Shown here one piece after another: positions 8,591-56,356 of a DNA stretch of 64,000 nucleotides; position 1 is the first letter of the stretch, and the number at the start of each line of letters is the position of its first letter. The stretch spans positions 62,001 through 126,000 of the forward strand of contig NZ_JACNMO010000002.1 of the NCBI RefSeq assembly GCF_020622345.1. Reading direction: 5' to 3'. The notes below the pieces were generated by a model. The model did no database searches, had not been told where the DNA came from, and was given only the letters and a program-made list of their open reading frames with translations. Source of the stretch: Roseobacter weihaiensis (lineage in GTDB: Bacteria > Pseudomonadota > Alphaproteobacteria > Rhodobacterales > Rhodobacteraceae). The position numbers and the translations under genes are program-made.

Positions 8591-9328
8591 ATGTTTGATC
8601 TGACAGGAAAAAACGCACTGGTCACCGGCGCATCGGGCGGCATCGGCGCCGAGATTGCCCGAACCCTGCACGCGGCAGGAGCGGCTGTAGGCCTCTCGGG
8701 CACGCGCGTTGACCCTTTGGAGGCGCTGGCCGCTGATCTGGGCGACCGCGCCCATGTGCTGCCGTGCAACTTGTCGGATATGACGGCGGTGGAGGCGCTG
8801 CCGAAGACCGCGGTCGAGGCAATGGGATCGGTTGACATCCTGGTCAACAACGCCGGGATCACCCGCGACAATCTCTTCATGCGGATGTCTGATGAGGAGT
8901 GGCAGTCCGTGCTGGACGTGAACCTGACCGCCACCTTCAAGCTTTGCAAAGGGGTAATGCGCGGCATGATGAAGGCCCGTTGGGGACGGATCGTGAATAT
9001 CTCCAGCGTTGTCGGAGCGACGGGTAATCCGGGGCAGGCCAATTACGCGGCCTCCAAGGCGGGCATGGTGGGGATGTCCAAAAGCCTCGCCTATGAGGTG
9101 GCCAGCCGCGGGATTACTGTAAACGCCGTAGCACCCGGTTTTATCGAGACGGCGATGACAGACAAGCTGACCGACGACCAGAAGGCTGGAATCATGGGTC
9201 AAATTCCCGCCGGTCGTATGGGGACAGCATCAGAGATCGCCTCGGGTGTTTTGTATCTGGCCAGTCCCGAAGCCGCTTACGTGACGGGCACGACCTTGCA
9301 TGTGAACGGCGGCATGGCCATGTTATAA
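8591..9328 (+). CDS. fabG: 3-oxoacyl-ACP reductase
   Basis: NADPH-dependent short-chain dehydrogenase that reduces 3-oxoacyl-ACP during chain elongation. The 245-residue protein has the Rossmann motif TGASGGIG (12-19), NNAG (86-89), catalytic Ser139, Tyr152 and Lys156 (YAASK), and the C-terminal GTTLHVNGGMAML ending typical of FabG. The ATG at 8591 follows GGATATTGAG; an upstream in-frame extension to 8432 overlaps fabD and is not credible. Cotranscription with fabD is likely. Confidence 0.97.
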   Translation: MFDLTGKNALVTGASGGIGAEIARTLHAAGAAVGLSGTRVDPLEALAADLGDRAHVLPCNLSDMTAVEALPKTAVEAMGSVDILVNNAGITRDNLFMRMSDEEWQSVLDVNLTATFKLCKGVMRGMMKARWGRIVNISSVVGATGNPGQANYAASKAGMVGMSKSLAYEVASRGITVNAVAPGFIETAMTDKLTDDQKAGIMGQIPAGRMGTASEIASGVLYLASPEAAYVTGTTLHVNGGMAML

Positions 9329-9581
9329 GCCGGATTGGCAGCCCCTGCAGGTGACACGTACAATGCGTTTGCCATCACTGCAGCTTGTGTTAAAGGGGGC
9401 GCAGTTTTTACCCGGCGTTTGTAGTTGCTGCGCCAACACTCCCTGTTGTTGTCAGGCGTTATGCCTGGCCTTGCGGGGATCGAGCCGCCCCTTTTGGGGC
9501 ATACGCATGTGTATCCGGCAGCGCGCCGGGCCCATGCAACCGAAACGGGCCAGATCTGGTCTGAATGAATGAGGGACTATT

Positions 9582-9815
9582 ATGAGCGACATCGCAGATC
9601 GCGTGAAGAAAATCGTTGTGGAACACCTTGGTGTCGAAGAGGATAAAGTGGCCGAGAGTGCATCGTTTATCGATGATCTGGGCGCGGACAGCCTCGACAC
9701 TGTCGAGCTTGTAATGGCCTTTGAAGAAGAATTCGGCATCGAAATTCCCGATGACGCGGCCGAGACCATCCAGACCTTTGGCGACGCGGTAAAGTTCATC
9801 ACCGAAGCGTCCTGA
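9582..9815 (+). CDS. acpP: Acyl carrier protein
   Basis: The 77-residue acidic carrier holds growing acyl chains on a phosphopantetheine arm attached to Ser37 in the motif [18 protein letters not shown]. It serves FabD, FabG and FabF encoded alongside. The ATG follows GAGGGACTATT. The 253-base gap after fabG holds no gene I can support, but it includes a GCCCC-TTTT-GGGGC hairpin at 9487-9500 and probably a separate promoter, since ACP is made in large excess. A strong terminator follows at 9848-9885. Confidence 0.98.
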
Positions 9816-9847
9816 GCCGCACACCGGCATTCTCCGGTGAATCGTAT

Positions 9848-9885
9848 AAAATGGCGCCTCTCCTGTTGTAGGGAGGCGCCATTTT
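9848..9885 (+). terminator. Intrinsic terminator after acpP
   Basis: A 13-base-pair stem (AAAATGGCGCCTC with GAGGCGCCATTTT) follows the acpP stop by 32 bases. It separates acpP from the GNAT gene and fabF, so these need their own promoter or read-through. Confidence 0.88.
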
Positions 9886-9988
9886 CATGACCGGGCTTCT
9901 CGGGGGGGTTGAATTGGCAGGGATATCTGCGCCATGGTTGCAGGCAGAGGGCGTCAAGCCCCGCTCCGCGAACTGAGGCAGAAATACT

Positions 9989-10522
9989 ATGTCGCGCACG
10001 ATACCAACGATTAATACGCATCGCCTGACACTGAGAGGCATGCGGGCAGAAGATTTCAATCGGTTTGCCGAGATTTGGGCGATGCCTGAGGTTGTCGCTC
10101 ACATTGACGGCGCACCCTGGCCGCGCAGCAAGTCCTGGGCTGCCTTCCTGCGCCATGCCGGCCATTGGCAAATCACTGGTTTTGGGCAATGGGCCATTCA
10201 TCGACACCGCGATCCGGATATGTCGGGGCAGGTTGGCTTTTTCTACGCCAAACGTGATCTCGGACCGGATTTTGATGATGTGCCCGAAGCGGGCTGGGTG
10301 CTGGCCCCCGAGGCGCACGGCCAGGGTTACGCGCGCGAAGCTGTGCGGGCTGCGCATGATTGGTTCGACCGTGTTGTGACCGGGCGGTTGGTCTGCCTGA
10401 TTGATCCGCGCAATGCCGCCTCACTGAGAATTGCCGAGGAGGTCGGCTACACCTTGTTGCGGGAGACGACCTATAAGGGGGAGCCGGTCACGCTGATGGA
10501 GCGCAAGGGTCCGCCACAGTAG
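9989..10522 (+). CDS. GNAT family N-acetyltransferase
   Basis: A 177-residue protein of the RimJ/RimL-like branch of acetyltransferases. It opens with IPTINTHRLTLRGMRAEDFNRFAEI, and the acetyl-CoA-binding segment is APEAHGQGYAREAVRAAHDW near residues 108-127, followed by IDPRNAASLRIAEEVGYTLL. The acceptor substrate cannot be told; protein N-termini or small amines are typical for this branch. A GAGGCAG ribosome site precedes the ATG. It lies between acpP and fabF, which are usually adjacent, so it is an insertion into the fatty-acid group. Confidence 0.9.
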   Translation: MSRTIPTINTHRLTLRGMRAEDFNRFAEIWAMPEVVAHIDGAPWPRSKSWAAFLRHAGHWQITGFGQWAIHRHRDPDMSGQVGFFYAKRDLGPDFDDVPEAGWVLAPEAHGQGYAREAVRAAHDWFDRVVTGRLVCLIDPRNAASLRIAEEVGYTLLRETTYKGEPVTLMERKGPPQ

Positions 10523-10601
10523 GGCGGCGGGACTTGATCGGCACTTGCACAGAAACGGCGGCTCACTGTATGGGGGGACAAGAATTGAAGGGGGCATCGC
10601 G

Positions 10602-11861
10602 ATGCGCAGAGTAGTTGTCACAGGGCTTGGCCTGGTTACGCCGCTGGCGGATGGGGTCGAGGCAAGCTGGGCCAGAATTCTGGACGGCCAGTCCGGCGCG
10701 GGGCAGATCACCGGCTTTGATCCCAGCAATCTGGTGACCCAATATGCCTGCGAAGTGCCCCTGGGCGACGGCAGTGACGGAACCTTTAACGCTGACGCCT
10801 ACATGGCCCCGAAAGAGCAGCGCAAAGTGGATACGTTTATTCTATTTGGTCTGGCGGCCGCGGAGCAGGCGGTCAAGGACGCAGGCTGGCAGCCTCAGGA
10901 CAAAGAGAGCCTGGAGCGCACCGGCGTGCTGATCGGTTCTGGTATCGGTGGGCTGAACTCCATTGCCAATACGGCGGTGATGATGGCCGAAAAGGGTCCG
11001 CGCCGGGTCAGCCCCTTCTTTGTCCCCGGCGCGTTGATCAACCTGATCTCGGGTCAGGTGAGCATCAAATACGGCTTCAAGGGACCGAACCATTCGGTTG
11101 TGACGGCCTGTTCGACCGGCGCGCATGCGATTGGGGATGCGAGCCGCCTCATTCAGCACGGGGATGCGGACGTTATGATTGCGGGCGGGGCCGAGGCGGC
11201 CGTTTGCGAGATCGGGATTGCGGGCTTTAACGCGTGCAAGGCGCTGTCGACCAAGCGGGGCGATGACCCGCAAAAGGCCAGCCGCCCCTATGATGCGGAT
11301 CGGGACGGGTTTGTCATGGGCGAAGGGGCGGGCATCGTTGTGCTGGAAGAATATGAGCACGCCAAGGCCCGCGGGGCAAAGATCTACGCCGAAGTGATGG
11401 GCTATGGCCTGTCGGGGGATGCGTATCACATCACGGCGCCCTCCGAGGACGGCGAGGGCGGCGAACGCTCCATGCGCAACGCGCTGCGCAACGCGGGGCT
11501 TGAGCCTAAGGACATCGACTATATCAATGCCCACGGCACCTCGACCATGGCCGACACCATTGAGCTTGGCGCGGTGGAGCGGATGCTGGGCGCACATGCG
11601 GGGGGCGTCACGATGTCCTCGACCAAATCAGCGACAGGGCATCTTTTGGGGGCGGCGGGGGCCATTGAGGCGATTTTCTCGGTCCTTGCGATCCGCGATC
11701 AGGTGGCACCACCCACGATCAATCTTGATAATCCGGCTGTGGAGACGAAAGTTGATCTGGCCCCCAACGCCAAGCGGCCGCGCGAGATTAACGTGGCCTT
11801 GTCGAATTCCTTCGGGTTCGGCGGGACCAACGCCAGCATCATATTCGGGAAGATCGGATAA
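10602..11861 (+). CDS. fabF: 3-oxoacyl-ACP synthase II
   Basis: Condensing enzyme that elongates acyl-ACP with malonyl-ACP. The 419-residue protein has the active-site Cys170 in VTACSTGAHAIGDA, and the histidines in INAHGTST and KSATGHLLGAAG. The C-terminal NSFGFGGTNAS glycine loop is present. I start at ATG 10602 (MRRVVVTGLG) with GAAGGGGG upstream; the frame extends back to 10545 but those residues are not part of the family. The stop codon overlaps the mltG start by one base (TAATG), so the two are translationally coupled. Confidence 0.97.
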   Translation: MRRVVVTGLGLVTPLADGVEASWARILDGQSGAGQITGFDPSNLVTQYACEVPLGDGSDGTFNADAYMAPKEQRKVDTFILFGLAAAEQAVKDAGWQPQDKESLERTGVLIGSGIGGLNSIANTAVMMAEKGPRRVSPFFVPGALINLISGQVSIKYGFKGPNHSVVTACSTGAHAIGDASRLIQHGDADVMIAGGAEAAVCEIGIAGFNACKALSTKRGDDPQKASRPYDADRDGFVMGEGAGIVVLEEYEHAKARGAKIYAEVMGYGLSGDAYHITAPSEDGEGGERSMRNALRNAGLEPKDIDYINAHGTSTMADTIELGAVERMLGAHAGGVTMSSTKSATGHLLGAAGAIEAIFSVLAIRDQVAPPTINLDNPAVETKVDLAPNAKRPREINVALSNSFGFGGTNASIIFGKIG

Positions 11862-51218: not shown

Positions 51219-51545
51219 CTAGTCGTATTGGTGATCCAGCGTATGCGACTGGCCGTTCTCGCCGTCGATGCGTTTGGCGTATATTTCACGTGGAAAGTCG
51301 TCATCGACGACGCCATGCACCGTGACGGGCATCCCTTGTTGGACCGGCATCCGATTGGGGCCGATGTAAACGGGGATCTGTCCGGTGTGGTCTTTCAGCA
51401 CGAATGTATCTTCATCGGTGATCTGATGCACGATACCGCTGACGGTGACCCAGCTATCCGCCTCCACTGCGGAAATGGTTTGCCCCGCGAAGACAGTGCT
51501 TGGCGCCGCGAGCAGAAGGCAGGTGATCCACAATCCGTTTTTCAT
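51219..51545 (-). CDS. Periplasmic OB-fold (BOF/YgiW-like) protein
   Basis: A 108-residue exported protein: signal peptide MKNGLWITCLLLAAPSTVFA (1-20), then an OB-fold domain with VSGIVHQITDEDTFVLKDHTGQIPVYIG and MPVTVHGVVDDDFPREIYAKRI, as in YgiW/YdeI stress proteins. The usual family role is tolerance to oxidative or metal stress; the ligand is unknown. The true start is ATG 51545: the frame continues to 51815 but that part overlaps the small gene at 51548-51691 in another frame. Two bases separate it from that gene, so they form one unit. Confidence 0.87.
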   Translation of the reverse strand: MKNGLWITCLLLAAPSTVFAGQTISAVEADSWVTVSGIVHQITDEDTFVLKDHTGQIPVYIGPNRMPVQQGMPVTVHGVVDDDFPREIYAKRIDGENGQSHTLDHQYD

Positions 51546-51547
51546 CT

Positions 51548-51691
51548 CTAGTCCAGCGCCGCGCCAAGCATAACGAGGACCACAAGACCTGCGAGCATGA
51601 ATGCCCAAGCCGGCGCTGTCAGAGAGACCTCCGACTTCAAACGGGTCATCAGTGTATTGAGGTTGAGAGGTGTTGTTTTTTGATCTTGCAT
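51548..51691 (-). CDS. Small single-pass membrane protein, 47 residues
   Basis: This short gene has an excellent ribosome site, AGGAG 7 bases before the ATG, and stops 2 bases before the OB-fold gene. The product starts MQDQKTTPLNLNTLMTRL, and residues about 24-45 form one membrane helix (APAWAFMLAGLVVLVMLGAAL). I know no family for it. The tight spacing and shared strand argue that it is translated with the OB-fold protein, perhaps as a membrane partner. Confidence 0.75.
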   Translation of the reverse strand: MQDQKTTPLNLNTLMTRLKSEVSLTAPAWAFMLAGLVVLVMLGAALD

Positions 51692-51815: not shown

Positions 51816-52697
51816 TCAGCGCCGGTCGCGATCCGCGAACCGCGGCAGCATGGCGGAGAAATCCTGACCGCGCCCCCCTTCGTCTTCGACGAATTGACGG
51901 TAAAGCTCCAGCGCGCGGGCCCCCATGGGGGTATCGGCGTTCACAGCTTCCGCCGCCTGTTGGGAGAGCCTTAGATCCTTGAGCATCAGTTCCGCTGCGA
52001 AACCGGGCTTGTAGCCATTGTCAGCCGGGCTCTGTGGGCCCACGCCCGGTGCCGGGCAATAGGCGTTCATCGACCAGCTGTAGCCAGAGGATGTGCTGAC
52101 AACGTCAAACATTTTTTGACGGTCGAGCCCCAGCTTGTCAGCCAGCGCGAAGGCTTCGCAGGTGGCGATCATGGTCGCCCCGAGGATCATGTTGTTGCAG
52201 ATCTTGGCCGCTTGTCCGGCCCCCGCCGCCCCGCAATGCACCGCCTTTTGCCCCATGATGTCAAAGAGCGGTTGGGCCGCGGCAAAGGCGGCCTCCGACC
52301 CGCCGGCCATGAAGGTGAGTGTGCCGGCGGCTGCCCCGCCGACGCCGCCAGAGACCGGCGCATCGACAAAGTTGAGGCCGTGGCTGGCAGCCTGCCGGGC
52401 CACGTCGCGCGTGCTTTGCACATCGACGGTCGAGCAATCCAGAAACAGGGCCCCCGGCTTCATCTGGGGCAAAAGCTCCTGCGCGACGGCGCGCAGGATC
52501 TCGCCATCGGGCAGCATCGTCAACACCACATCCGCGTCGTGCACCGCCTCGGGGCCGCTGTTTGCCGCCGCAACGCCCTTGGCGGTGGTGCCTGCCGGGT
52601 CAAAGCCCGTGACTGTCATGCCTGCCTTGGCCAGATTTGCGGCCATCGGTGCGCCCATGTTTCCCAGCCCGATAAAGCCGATCTTTGGGTGTGTCAT
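51816..52697 (-). other. mmsB: Internal 3-hydroxyisobutyrate dehydrogenase (mmsB) region with its own start signals
   Basis: This is the dehydrogenase half of the fused frame, listed apart because ATG 52697 is preceded by AGGAG at a 6-base spacing, as a free-standing mmsB would be. The 293-residue product has the usual length of 3-hydroxyisobutyrate dehydrogenases: Rossmann motif at residues 8-14, substrate motif FVDAPVSGGVGGA, and catalytic lysine near 170. It oxidises 3-hydroxyisobutyrate to methylmalonate semialdehyde, the substrate of mmsA. Confidence 0.75.
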
Positions 52698-53738
52698 CGC
52701 GTTCTCCTCCAGCTTCAGTGCGTCTTTGCCCAGCGGCATCAGCATCTTGCTGACCGCGATCGCGGGGACACGCTGGTTGGCAAATTGCCACTGCGGGCAC
52801 CGGTCCTTGTCAATGATCGCGGCACGTATGCCTTCCAGAAGATCGCCATGCTCCATCGCGCGCGCGGTAAAGCGGTATTCCAGCTCCAGCGCCTTTTGGA
52901 TGGAGAGGGACGGGCCGCGCAGCCGGTGCAGGATCTCAACCGTACAGGCCATCGCCAGCGGTGCATTGCGCGCGAGCGTGGTCCGTGTGTCGATGGCAAA
53001 GGGGCTGTCGTCCTGTTCCAGCGTTGTCAGAATATCCCCAAGGGTCTCGCCGGCAAAATGGCGGTCGATGTCGCTTTGCAGGGCGTCAAGCCTGGCAGCG
53101 CCGGGGTCCGCAGCGCTGGTCAGAATGTCATCGGGGATGCCGCCTGTTTCCAGCGCTGTTGTCAGGTCCGGCCATGCCGTCTCAGGGATAAAATGATCGG
53201 CAAAGCCCGCGTAGATCGCATCCGCCGCGGCCATGCGCCAGCCTGTGGTGCCCAGGAATTCGCCGGACCGGCCGGGGGCCAGTGCCAGCATGAGCGAGCC
53301 GCCCACATCCGGCACCAACCCGATCCCGCATTCGGGCATCGCGATCTTGCTGCTTTCCCCGACAATACGGTGCGAGCCATGACAGCCCAGCCCGACCCCG
53401 CCGCCCATCGTGAACCCCTGCAGGAACGAAACGACAGATTTGGGGTAGTTGAAAATCTTGGCGTTCAGCCGGTATTCATCCGCCCAGAACCGTCTGCCGT
53501 AGGCGAAATCGCCCGCGCGCCCGGTCTCATAGAGCTCGGCAATATCGCCGCCCGCGCAAAACGCCTTGTCGCCCTCGGCATCCAGCACGATATGGGCAAC
53601 GCCCGGGTCATTGCGCCAACGGTCCAGGGCGGCTTCGATGTCGAGACACATCTGATAGGTCAGCGCATTCAGGGCCTGCGGGCGCCTCAATGTAATGCGC
53701 CCGGCCTGTCCTGCTGTGCGGATTGAGATATCGGTCAT
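51816..53738 (-). CDS. Fused 3-hydroxyisobutyryl-CoA hydrolase / 3-hydroxyisobutyrate dehydrogenase
   Basis: One uninterrupted 640-codon frame encodes two consecutive enzymes of valine breakdown. Residues 1-347 are a crotonase-fold hydrolase (ISIRTAGQAGRITLRRPQALNALTYQM, SFLQGFTMGGGVGLGCHGSHRI, MPECGIGLVPDVGGS). Residues 348-640 are the NAD-dependent dehydrogenase, with IGFIGLGNMGAPMAANLAKAGM and the catalytic lysine in GAGQAAKICNNMI. In most relatives these are separate genes. At the junction GGAGGAGAACGCG-ATG keeps a perfect ribosome site and start (52697), so a free dehydrogenase may also be made. Lies 80 bases after mmsA, same strand. A lost stop codon or sequencing error at the junction is the alternative to a real fusion. 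Confidence 0.88.
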   Translation of the reverse strand: MTDISIRTAGQAGRITLRRPQALNALTYQMCLDIEAALDRWRNDPGVAHIVLDAEGDKAFCAGGDIAELYETGRAGDFAYGRRFWADEYRLNAKIFNYPKSVVSFLQGFTMGGGVGLGCHGSHRIVGESSKIAMPECGIGLVPDVGGSLMLALAPGRSGEFLGTTGWRMAAADAIYAGFADHFIPETAWPDLTTALETGGIPDDILTSAADPGAARLDALQSDIDRHFAGETLGDILTTLEQDDSPFAIDTRTTLARNAPLAMACTVEILHRLRGPSLSIQKALELEYRFTARAMEHGDLLEGIRAAIIDKDRCPQWQFANQRVPAIAVSKMLMPLGKDALKLEENAMTHPKIGFIGLGNMGAPMAANLAKAGMTVTGFDPAGTTAKGVAAANSGPEAVHDADVVLTMLPDGEILRAVAQELLPQMKPGALFLDCSTVDVQSTRDVARQAASHGLNFVDAPVSGGVGGAAAGTLTFMAGGSEAAFAAAQPLFDIMGQKAVHCGAAGAGQAAKICNNMILGATMIATCEAFALADKLGLDRQKMFDVVSTSSGYSWSMNAYCPAPGVGPQSPADNGYKPGFAAELMLKDLRLSQQAAEAVNADTPMGARALELYRQFVEDEGGRGQDFSAMLPRFADRDRR

Positions 53739-53818: not shown

Positions 53819-55318
53819 CTATTCCATGACCGGAATGGAGAATTCGCCGCCTTCCTTGATGCCCGAGGGCCAGCGCGCGGTGACGGTTTTCGTGCGGGTA
53901 TAGAATTTGAAGGCGTCCGGTCCGTGCTGGTTCAGATCGCCGAAGACGGATTTCTTCCAGCCGCCAAAGGTGTGGTAGGCCAGCGGCACCGGGATCGGCA
54001 CGTTGATGCCCACCATGCCCACATTGACCCGGTTGGCAAAATCGCGCGCCGCATCGCCATCGCGGGTAAAGATCGCGGTGCCGTTGCCATACTCATGATC
54101 CATCGCGAGGCCAAGCGCCTCTTCATAGCTTTCGGCCCGGACGGTCGACAGCACGGGGCCAAAGATTTCCTGGGTATAGATGTCCATGTCCTTTGTGACG
54201 TGGTCAAAAAGATGCGGCCCGATAAAGAACCCGTCCTCATAGCCCTGAAGGTTGAAGTTGCGCCCATCGACCACAAGCTTGGCCCCCTGATCGATGCCGG
54301 TCTGCACCAGACGTTCGATATTGGCCTTGGCGGCGGCGGTGACCACGGGGCCGTAATCCACGTCATTGCCCGCCGTGTAGGGGCCGACCTTGAGCTTTTC
54401 GATCCGCGGCACCAGCTTTTCGATCAGCCGGTCTGCGGTCTCATCGCCCACCGGCACGGCGACCGAGATGGCCATGCAGCGTTCGCCCGCCGCGCCATAG
54501 CCCGCCCCGATGAGCGCATCCGCAGCCTGATCCATATCCGCATCCGGCATGATGATCATGTGGTTCTTGGCCCCGCCGAAACACTGCACGCGTTTGCCAT
54601 TGGCACAACCGGTGCCGTAGATGTATTCGGCAATCGGGGTGGAGCCGACAAAGCCTACGGACTGGATCACGTCATGATGCAGGATCGCATCGACCGCTTC
54701 CTTGTCGCCGTTGACCACCTGCAGGACGCCCTTGGGCAGGCCCGCTTCCTCCATCAGTTCGGCCAGCATCAACGGCACCGAGGGGTCGCGCTCCGACGGT
54801 TTGAGGATGAAGGCGTTGCCGCAGGCAATCGCCGGGGCGAACATCCACATCGGGATCATTGCGGGAAAGTTGAAAGGGGTGATGCCCGCCGTCACCCCCA
54901 AAGCCTGACGCATGGAGTACATGTCGATCCCCGGACCGGCGCTGTCGGTGTATTCCCCTTTCAGCAGATGCGGGGCGCCGATGCAGTATTCCACCACCTC
55001 AAGGCCGCGCTGCACGTCGCCGGCGGCATCGGGCAGGGTCTTGCCGTGCTCGCGGCTCAATGCTTCGGCCAGTTTGTCCATGTCACGGTTCAGAAGGCCC
55101 ACGAATTTCATCAGCACCCGCGCCCGCCGCTGCGGGTTCACGGCGGCCCAGGCCGGTTGCACCCTGGCCGCAATTTCAACCGCCTTGGCGACCTCGTCGG
55201 ACGAGGCGAGCGGCACCTTGGCCTGCACCTCACCGGTCGCAGGGTTCATGACATCGGCAAACCGGCCAGAGATGCCTTTGACGTGGGTGCCGTCGATGTA
55301 ATGGGTGAGTTCTTGCAT
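53819..55318 (-). CDS. mmsA: Methylmalonate-semialdehyde dehydrogenase (CoA-acylating)
   Basis: Converts methylmalonate semialdehyde to propionyl-CoA with NAD and CoA in valine breakdown. The 499-residue aldehyde dehydrogenase shows GISGRFADVMNPATGEV near the start, the coenzyme region PFNFPAMIPMWMFAPAIACGN and the catalytic cysteine in GAAGERCMAISVAVPVG. I start at ATG 55318 (MQELTHYIDG) with AGGAGAG upstream; the frame extends to 55378 but into the divergent regulator's operator region. First gene of the unit with the fused hydrolase/dehydrogenase. Confidence 0.96.
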   Translation of the reverse strand: MQELTHYIDGTHVKGISGRFADVMNPATGEVQAKVPLASSDEVAKAVEIAARVQPAWAAVNPQRRARVLMKFVGLLNRDMDKLAEALSREHGKTLPDAAGDVQRGLEVVEYCIGAPHLLKGEYTDSAGPGIDMYSMRQALGVTAGITPFNFPAMIPMWMFAPAIACGNAFILKPSERDPSVPLMLAELMEEAGLPKGVLQVVNGDKEAVDAILHHDVIQSVGFVGSTPIAEYIYGTGCANGKRVQCFGGAKNHMIIMPDADMDQAADALIGAGYGAAGERCMAISVAVPVGDETADRLIEKLVPRIEKLKVGPYTAGNDVDYGPVVTAAAKANIERLVQTGIDQGAKLVVDGRNFNLQGYEDGFFIGPHLFDHVTKDMDIYTQEIFGPVLSTVRAESYEEALGLAMDHEYGNGTAIFTRDGDAARDFANRVNVGMVGINVPIPVPLAYHTFGGWKKSVFGDLNQHGPDAFKFYTRTKTVTARWPSGIKEGGEFSIPVME

Positions 55319-55427
55319 CGGTCTCTCCTTGCTGAGGCGAAAGGCCGGAGCGCCGGGGTGCTTTCGCGTGTTGGACAAAGCTTAGTCTTGCAAAAACCCG
55401 TCCGAAAGAGGAAAGAAGGCAAAGTGG

Positions 55428-55445
55428 TTTTGCATTTTTGCAAAA
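55428..55445. promoter_or_regulatory. Operator-like dyad between mmsA and its LysR gene
   Basis: TTTTGCA and TGCAAAA are perfect 7-base arms around TTTT. A further half site TTGCAAAA is at 55388-55395. The set sits in the divergent gap, as expected for a LysR regulator that controls mmsA and itself. Confidence 0.6.
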
Positions 55446-55459
55446 TGGAGGCGGCGCGC

Positions 55460-56356
55460 TTGCACAGCAATTGGGATGATCTGCGGCTGTTTCTGGCCGT
55501 TGCGCGGACGCAGAGCCTGTCCGGCGCCGGCAGGCTTTTGCGTCTTGACCCCGCCACCCTGGGGCGTCGTATGCAAAAGCTGGAGGCGGCGCTGCAGGCC
55601 ACGTTGTTCTCCAAGTCGCCGCAGGGCTATGCGCTGACGGACGCCGGGGCCGCGCTTCTGCTGCGTGCCGAACAGGCGGAGACGGCCATGCGGGCGGCCG
55701 TCGCGGATATCCCGGCGCAGGGCGACCGGCTAAAGGGCCAGATCCGCATCGGGGCACCGGATGGGGCCGCGAACTATCTGCTGCCGCAGGTCTGTGCTGC
55801 GATTGCCTTGGAAAACCCCGACCTCGAAATTCAGATCGTGGCCTTGCCACGTGTGTTTAACCTCTCCCGGCGCGAGGCGGATATGGCAATCGGCGTCAGC
55901 GCTCCCACCGCCGGGCGGCTGATCGTGCAGAAAATCACCGACTACCACCTGCATCTGGCCGCCTCGGAGGCTTATCTTTCCACAAACCCGCCGATCACCT
56001 GCGGCGCTGACCTGCGCGCCCACCGGATGGTCGGCTATATCCCCGACATGATCTTTGACCGCGAGCTGGATTATCTGGCCGACCTTGGGATCACGCGGGT
56101 GCCGCTGGCGTCAAATTCCGTCTCCGTTCAGCTCAATTTCATTCGTCAGGGGGGCGGGGTGGGAATTGTGCATGACTTTGCCCTGCCTGCCGCGTCAGGC
56201 GTGCGGCGCATTCTGGTGGAGGTGGTCAGCCTGACCCGGGCCTTCTACCTGATCCGCCACGAAGACGACCGCCGCAATGCCCGGCTGACCCGGTTTGCCG
56301 ATGCGCTCAGTGTCGGTGTAAGGGCGGAAGTCGCCCGTCTCGAAGCGCTGGCTTGA
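55460..56356 (+). CDS. LysR family transcriptional regulator
   Basis: A 298-residue regulator with an N-terminal winged helix (HSNWDDLRLFLAVARTQSLSGAGRLLRLDPATLGRRMQKLEAAL) and an effector-binding domain from about residue 90 (GQIRIGAPDGAANYLLPQV). I favour TTG 55460 because GGAGG lies 8 bases upstream and the protein then starts right at the conserved domain; ATG 55445 has no ribosome site and lies in the operator dyad. Divergent from mmsA, so it probably senses a valine-breakdown intermediate. The frame is open far upstream (to 53810) as antisense to mmsA, which is chance. Confidence 0.92.
   Translation: MHSNWDDLRLFLAVARTQSLSGAGRLLRLDPATLGRRMQKLEAALQATLFSKSPQGYALTDAGAALLLRAEQAETAMRAAVADIPAQGDRLKGQIRIGAPDGAANYLLPQVCAAIALENPDLEIQIVALPRVFNLSRREADMAIGVSAPTAGRLIVQKITDYHLHLAASEAYLSTNPPITCGADLRAHRMVGYIPDMIFDRELDYLADLGITRVPLASNSVSVQLNFIRQGGGVGIVHDFALPAASGVRRILVEVVSLTRAFYLIRHEDDRRNARLTRFADALSVGVRAEVARLEALA

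Follow-up and report, generated by a model that had tools for sequence, protein, structure and literature searches.

Fusion of neighbouring enzyme genes has been described for hisIE, where two consecutive-step enzymes are encoded in one operon and where the genes are described as approaching, overlapping and fusing, more than once in Bacteria (PMC1963479). The gene described here, a fusion of 3-hydroxyisobutyryl-CoA hydrolase and 3-hydroxyisobutyrate dehydrogenase from Roseobacter weihaiensis, resembles hisIE in that two consecutive-step enzymes of one operon have been fused repeatedly. Unlike hisIE, which belongs to histidine biosynthesis, the hydrolase and dehydrogenase are catabolic enzymes of the valine pathway, their halves are separate in most relatives classed, and reversals appear frequent. 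The fused gene also keeps the second gene's start signals. Where Rhodobacteraceae and other Alphaproteobacteria have hydrolase and mmsB as separate adjacent genes, these encode the same enzymes in the same order, with a Shine-Dalgarno (SD) sequence and a start codon at the dehydrogenase, but an intervening stop codon or a change of frame keeps them apart. Internal starts that lie in frame and give a short isoform are known from cheA and infB. The fused gene is like these in having one frame, two starts and products with a common C-terminal part, and unlike them in that the predicted short product is a complete enzyme which in many relatives is still a separate gene. No description of a hydrolase-dehydrogenase fusion was found in the open-access literature searched. 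The proteome of Roseobacter litoralis lists MmsA, and the term "hydroxyisobutyr" is absent from that paper (PMC4103551).

All coordinates are those of the window, i.e., the whole 64,000-nucleotide stretch of Roseobacter weihaiensis DNA that was analysed, and the features discussed are as follows.

51219-51575, minus strand: small gene downstream of the fused gene, NirD/YgiW/YdeI stress-tolerance OB-fold-like (37.9 bits, cut-off 35)
51816..52697, minus strand: dehydrogenase half, codons 348-640 plus stop, 3-hydroxyisobutyrate dehydrogenase of the MmsB type (TIGR01692, PF03446, PF14833, 5y8g_A)
52695..52697, minus strand: internal ATG start for the dehydrogenase half, at codon 348 (start codon in 58/58 fused genes)
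52703-52698, minus strand: 6-base spacer between AGGAG and the inner start (read from the sequence)
52704..52708, minus strand: internal Shine-Dalgarno AGGAG, within Glu-Glu codons (read from the sequence)
52698..53738, minus strand: hydrolase half, codons 1-347, 3-hydroxyisobutyryl-CoA hydrolase (NF004127, PF16113 ECH_2 and 4j2u_A matches)
53819..55318, minus strand: mmsA, CoA-acylating methylmalonate-semialdehyde dehydrogenase, 80 bases upstream of the fused gene (TIGR01722; start codon by eye)
55418..56356, plus strand: probable LysR-like regulator, divergent (LysR-type family matches; start by eye)

The fused frame of 640 codons runs on the minus strand from 53738 to 51816 and is uninterrupted through both complete domains. 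The original prediction, which gave no strand, had proposed a single 640-codon frame that joins a complete hydrolase (codons 1-347) to a complete dehydrogenase (codons 348-640), the two being consecutive enzymes of the valine pathway, and on all of these points it was borne out by profile matches. The NCBIfam hydrolase model NF004127 aligned to residues 3-342 with 360.1 bits (cut-off 274; profile positions 10-354 of 356), a full-length match to a HIBCH-type model, and the HIBADH equivalog model TIGR01692 aligned to residues 355-631 with 370.3 bits (cut-off 291.6; positions 1-284 of 288). The Pfam matches were concordant, with PF16113 ECH_2 at 345 bits on the hydrolase half and PF03446 and PF14833 on the dehydrogenase half. 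A single open frame that holds both domains entire and is found beyond one assembly can be regarded as a composite gene. The AGGAG that had been placed 6 bases from an ATG at 52697 is likewise there, at 52708-52704 and followed by the spacer at 52703-52698. Within the hydrolase half, the segment MPECGIGLVPD, nearly identical in 4j2u_A, contains a Glu/Asp pair 8 residues apart, a putative counterpart of the catalytic acid pair of plant CHY1 and human HIBCH.

The closest solved chains are 4j2u_A, aligned to residues 1-346, and 5y8g_A, aligned to residues 352-632, and of 34 distinct PDB sequences retrieved, not one spans both halves in its best stretch. Because the 4j2u_A alignment stops at residue 363 of that chain's 365, the hydrolase half extends to about its natural end. 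The dehydrogenase half, for its part, opens with its own start codon, so that next to nothing has been inserted between the two. An AlphaFold model of the fused chain (118 rows) had a mean pLDDT of 94.9 and a pTM of 0.72, with a pLDDT of 73 in the linker block 341-350. Each half is thus confidently folded in the model, while the pTM and linker values leave the relative placement of the halves unfixed, and channelling is neither supported nor excluded by it.

No other close copy of either half was found in the same genome, and as the next matches are only 25-37% identical, both valine steps probably depend on the fused gene. The upstream mmsA (TIGR01722, 643.1 bits, cut-off 448.5) lies on the same strand, and the MmsA step comes after the dehydrogenase step in the pathway. 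For the divergent LysR-like gene the best match was 68.9 bits, with all 25 matches listed below their cut-offs, and the small downstream gene has no evident tie to valine breakdown. Long antisense open frames also lie over the fused gene (52116-53726, plus strand, 536 codons; 52135-53196, plus strand, 353 codons), most likely as a by-product of codon composition.

The junction is open, i.e., fused, in all 19 same-genus genomes searched. In a family sample of 295 genomes, 257 of which had a match at 1e-60, 125 loci were classed: 31 are fused, 37 have an in-frame stop and 57 carry the second gene in another frame. This set is biased to high scorers and leaves 132 of the 257 matching genomes unclassed. 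Two of these, G119 (L173) and G245 (residues 1-525, from the listing), look open over the junction. Pooling the genus loci and the family sample with 80 named loci (the best 80 of 592) gave 234 loci, of which 220 fell into a class (61 fused, 86 in-frame stop, 73 other frame). The fused ones include loci of Sulfitobacter brevis (L055), Pelagimonas varians (L071) and Tropicibacter naphthalenivorans (L082). After removal of nine near-duplicates, 211 non-redundant loci remained (58 fused, 81 in-frame stop, 72 other frame), so that the two genes are separated by a stop or a frame difference at 153 of the 211; the named loci favour same-frame matches, and 58/211 is therefore not readable as a prevalence. 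At 39 of the 72 other-frame junctions the genes overlap by 4 bases. The 14 unclassed loci include the seven own-genome paralogue loci (L002-L008), two in which the hydrolase half was not found (L125 and L127), and five in which one or both halves were not found at the limit used (L172, L173, L203, L212 and L229); the hydrolase part of L173 contains a stretch of N and its junction is open, and L172 has a stop at the junction.

A class-wide search of 385 genomes, 140 of which matched at 1e-80, was made without classing junctions, and its only stop-free rows spanning the two halves in a single frame are those of G000 and G055, both Rhodobacteraceae. The plasmid search matched 313 records, and among the best 40 those with annotation name two genes. 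The Rhizobium leguminosarum plasmid NC_011370.1 carries at 8890-10763 a hydrolase-mmsB pair that is 57.5% identical to the Roseobacter weihaiensis gene, above the 46-50% identity of the other rhizobial rows among the matches listed, and possibly transferred from Rhodobacteraceae. A metagenome-assembled genome labelled Gammaproteobacteria (L125, among the best 80 of 592) has a 74%-identical dehydrogenase, perhaps through a binning error or transfer.

To the original prediction, the arrangement looked as if the first gene had recently lost its stop codon, and neither part of that view was supported: all 19 genus genomes searched share the fusion, and a state model prefers an other-frame junction as its origin (lnL -155.5 vs -166.1). 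Comparison with separate homologues, which had been suggested as a way to tell one lineage from many, revealed many fused/unfused changes. On a gene tree of 208 rows, with junction columns excluded and 3 short rows left out, at least 16 such changes are required, and 52 among the three states; the count is 14-23 on 24 resampled trees, 18 and 22 on the trees of each half alone, and at least 43 when labels are shuffled (200 shuffles, one tree). A single origin is rejected by these counts and by the AU test of one clade of all fused rows (p = 2.8e-5). Reversals within a fused group are seen at L146 and at L091/L209.

In the three-state model, a simple one whose rates are based on the tree of the genes themselves, the rate to the fused state is near zero from an in-frame stop and 0.45 from another frame. 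Forbidding the other-frame route to fusion costs 10.6 log units and forbidding the stop route costs nothing. As an origin from another frame needs an indel, this gap points to small indels. The dehydrogenase frame is already stop-free for 3 codons upstream of the start in 71 of the 72 other-frame rows, so that one small indel can join the genes. For example, junction length differs by a single base between L189 (59 bases, 4-base overlap) and its sister L020 (60 bases, fused). Fused and unfused sisters are also found in L189 and L021, in L175 and L010, and in L118 and L019/L055. Stop loss is disfavoured by the model as the main route, yet it is possible in places, since 13 of the 58 fused rows have an in-frame-stop row as their closest unfused relative, and the junction of the stop-type L029 has the same length, 63, as those of its fused neighbours L027, L031 and L150. 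The length measurement left out 15 outgroup rows beforehand, and 22 of the 196 rows were not anchorable. The junction is much longer, at 105 bases, in one fused row, L014 (G174), which has the usual dehydrogenase start; the remaining 57 fused rows have 57-72 bases. The sequences compared show that the fusion was gained or lost more than once, and it seems to be no recent accident, having apparently arisen and been lost many times in the Rhodobacteraceae, a mostly marine family.

That the second gene's start signals are preserved, as the original prediction also held, was confirmed, and across the 58 fused genes they look like a conserved working start. All 58 have an inner start codon (56 ATG, 1 GTG, 1 TTG) at one of two fixed places, in a linker that otherwise varies between species. 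An SD core (GGAG/GAGG/AGGA/GGGA) precedes 57 of the 58 inner starts, L076 being the sole gene without a clear one, vs 111 of 1421 other in-frame Met codons. Start codon and SD core occur together in the six-codon junction window of 57/58 fused genes vs 1257/32347 in-frame windows elsewhere (3.9%), and the SD hybridisation energies, scored for 56 of the 58, gave P = 8.6e-31. Glu codons in the linker are GAG:GAA 73:15 vs 842:933 elsewhere. With columns anchored by a constant distance to the GLGxMG motif, the anchored codon was ATG in 18 of 19 genus rows and GTG in one, with an entropy of 0.30 bits, and the two residues before it had 2.4 and 3.1 bits and the one after it 2.9; the 36 other fused rows had ATG in 35 and TTG in one (0.18 bits; the two residues before, 2.65 and 2.4). 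As 4-fold sites are only 39% identical within the genus (median), inheritance alone would be a poor explanation for the kept inner start. Inner start and SD are thus conserved above background.

The two departures from ATG, TTG in L143 (G153) and GTG in L039 (G295), occur in fused genes that have kept the SD, which suggests that it is the start property that is conserved rather than methionine. In 22 of the 58 fused rows the start lies 3 codons upstream of its usual place, a position taken in none of the 137 scored unfused rows that do not belong to the outgroup, with one row (L130) unscored. These 22 are the 19 genus members plus L010, L019 and L055, and all have an SD core. The inner start would thus appear free to move after fusion, with shared ancestry limiting the cases to about three lineages.

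Our preferred reading, to which we would give a probability of roughly 0.75, is that the gene genuinely encodes two enzymes and is translated from two starts, probably yielding the fusion plus a free dehydrogenase. The fused frame, the complete domains and the conserved inner start are plain features of the sequences. We infer from sequence the production of both proteins, their activities and the indel route. Translation from 53738 would give a 640-residue protein whose N-terminal half would free CoA from 3-hydroxyisobutyryl-CoA and whose C-terminal half would oxidise the released 3-hydroxyisobutyrate, and independent initiation at 52697 via the embedded AGGAG would give a free dehydrogenase of 293 residues, so that more dehydrogenase than hydrolase could be produced. 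The gene would have originated inside an operon with abutting or overlapping hydrolase and dehydrogenase genes, where a small frame-restoring indel would fuse the two at once, since the dehydrogenase frame upstream is already open. Such fusion would have been repeated in the Rhodobacteraceae, with some reversals, and retained in the genus of Roseobacter weihaiensis. Inner initiation may be weak where elongating ribosomes keep passing over the site, and the inner start signals could persist partly by inheritance.

If only the fused polypeptide were made, the inner SD and ATG would be functionless relics of an unfused ancestor, a situation compatible with a frame that is open throughout and with a fusion old enough in the genus for a relic to linger. 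We find this improbable, as all 58 start codons and 57 of the 58 SD cores have been kept among variable neighbouring residues and with genus 4-fold sites at 39% identity, and as a start that has moved 3 codons upstream in 22 of 58 genes, with an SD core in all 22, is not a simple relic. A sequencing or assembly error that deleted a stop or shifted the frame could be suspected in a draft genome of 91 contigs, but its likelihood is negligible, given that the fused frame is open in 58 non-redundant loci from many assemblies, single-contig genomes included (e.g., G055, G141 and G304); the open junction in 19/19 genus genomes and 31/125 classed family loci led us to reject such an artefact.

Compatible with two starts, and concerned with persistence, is the reading that a compact operon junction gave rise to the fusion as a near-neutral by-product tolerated by the proteins, with neither channelling nor a fixed ratio selected, which we put a little short of an even chance. 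It agrees with a loss rate like that of frame changes (fused to other 0.50 vs stop to other 0.55; equalising costs 0.6 log units), and the zero loss in the 19 genus rows plus L014 has a probability of 0.06 under rest-of-tree rates, which is suggestive only. It sits less well with a stop-to-fused rate near zero, although a single substitution suffices, and with how often a stop-type row has its stop in the two spacer codons, 34 of 66 rows outside the outgroup vs about 10% expected from base composition; given this excess, termination appears favoured in stop-type lineages, where fusing may carry a cost. The clade formed by the genus and L014 shows no fusion loss vs about 2.8 expected, and no spacer stop over 20 tips vs a neutral expectation of about 0.7-1.9; neither the rate test (P = 0.06) nor the spacer expectation is decisive for selection keeping the fusion there. 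Fused and stop states may each be stable in their own lineages. A bifunctional enzyme selected for channelling 3-hydroxyisobutyrate or for tethering the enzymes seems unlikely to us: the steps are consecutive, fusion appeared repeatedly and 19/19 genus genomes searched are fused, but the linker reaches only a few residues past the natural enzyme ends and differs between species, any shared cavity is hypothetical, reversals occur on the tree (L146; L091/L209 within a fused group), and 3-hydroxyisobutyrate is a stable acid. More tentatively than the near-neutral reading, we propose that the hydrolase-mmsB junction may be a naturally replicated two-way switch, in which small indels repeatedly turn abutting or overlapping genes into one dual-start gene whose inner start is then free to move, since the fusion covers dehydrogenase supply.

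The pathway concerned is ordinary catabolism of valine and possibly of 3-hydroxypropionate. One study describes, for acrylate resistance, valine-pathway enzymes that use acrylyl-CoA and 3-hydroxypropionyl-CoA as substrates (PMC4029986), and the fused gene could likewise take part there. In several lineages, fused and unfused forms of this enzyme pair occur in close relatives with the second start signals intact, a direct test bed for how operon genes fuse, for whether fusion is selected or tolerated, and for whether a separate second protein is still made. A free second protein from a fused gene would normally be missed by gene lists. If the junction is indeed a two-way switch, operon gene fusion would be frequent, reversible and mutation-driven, with many natural replicates.
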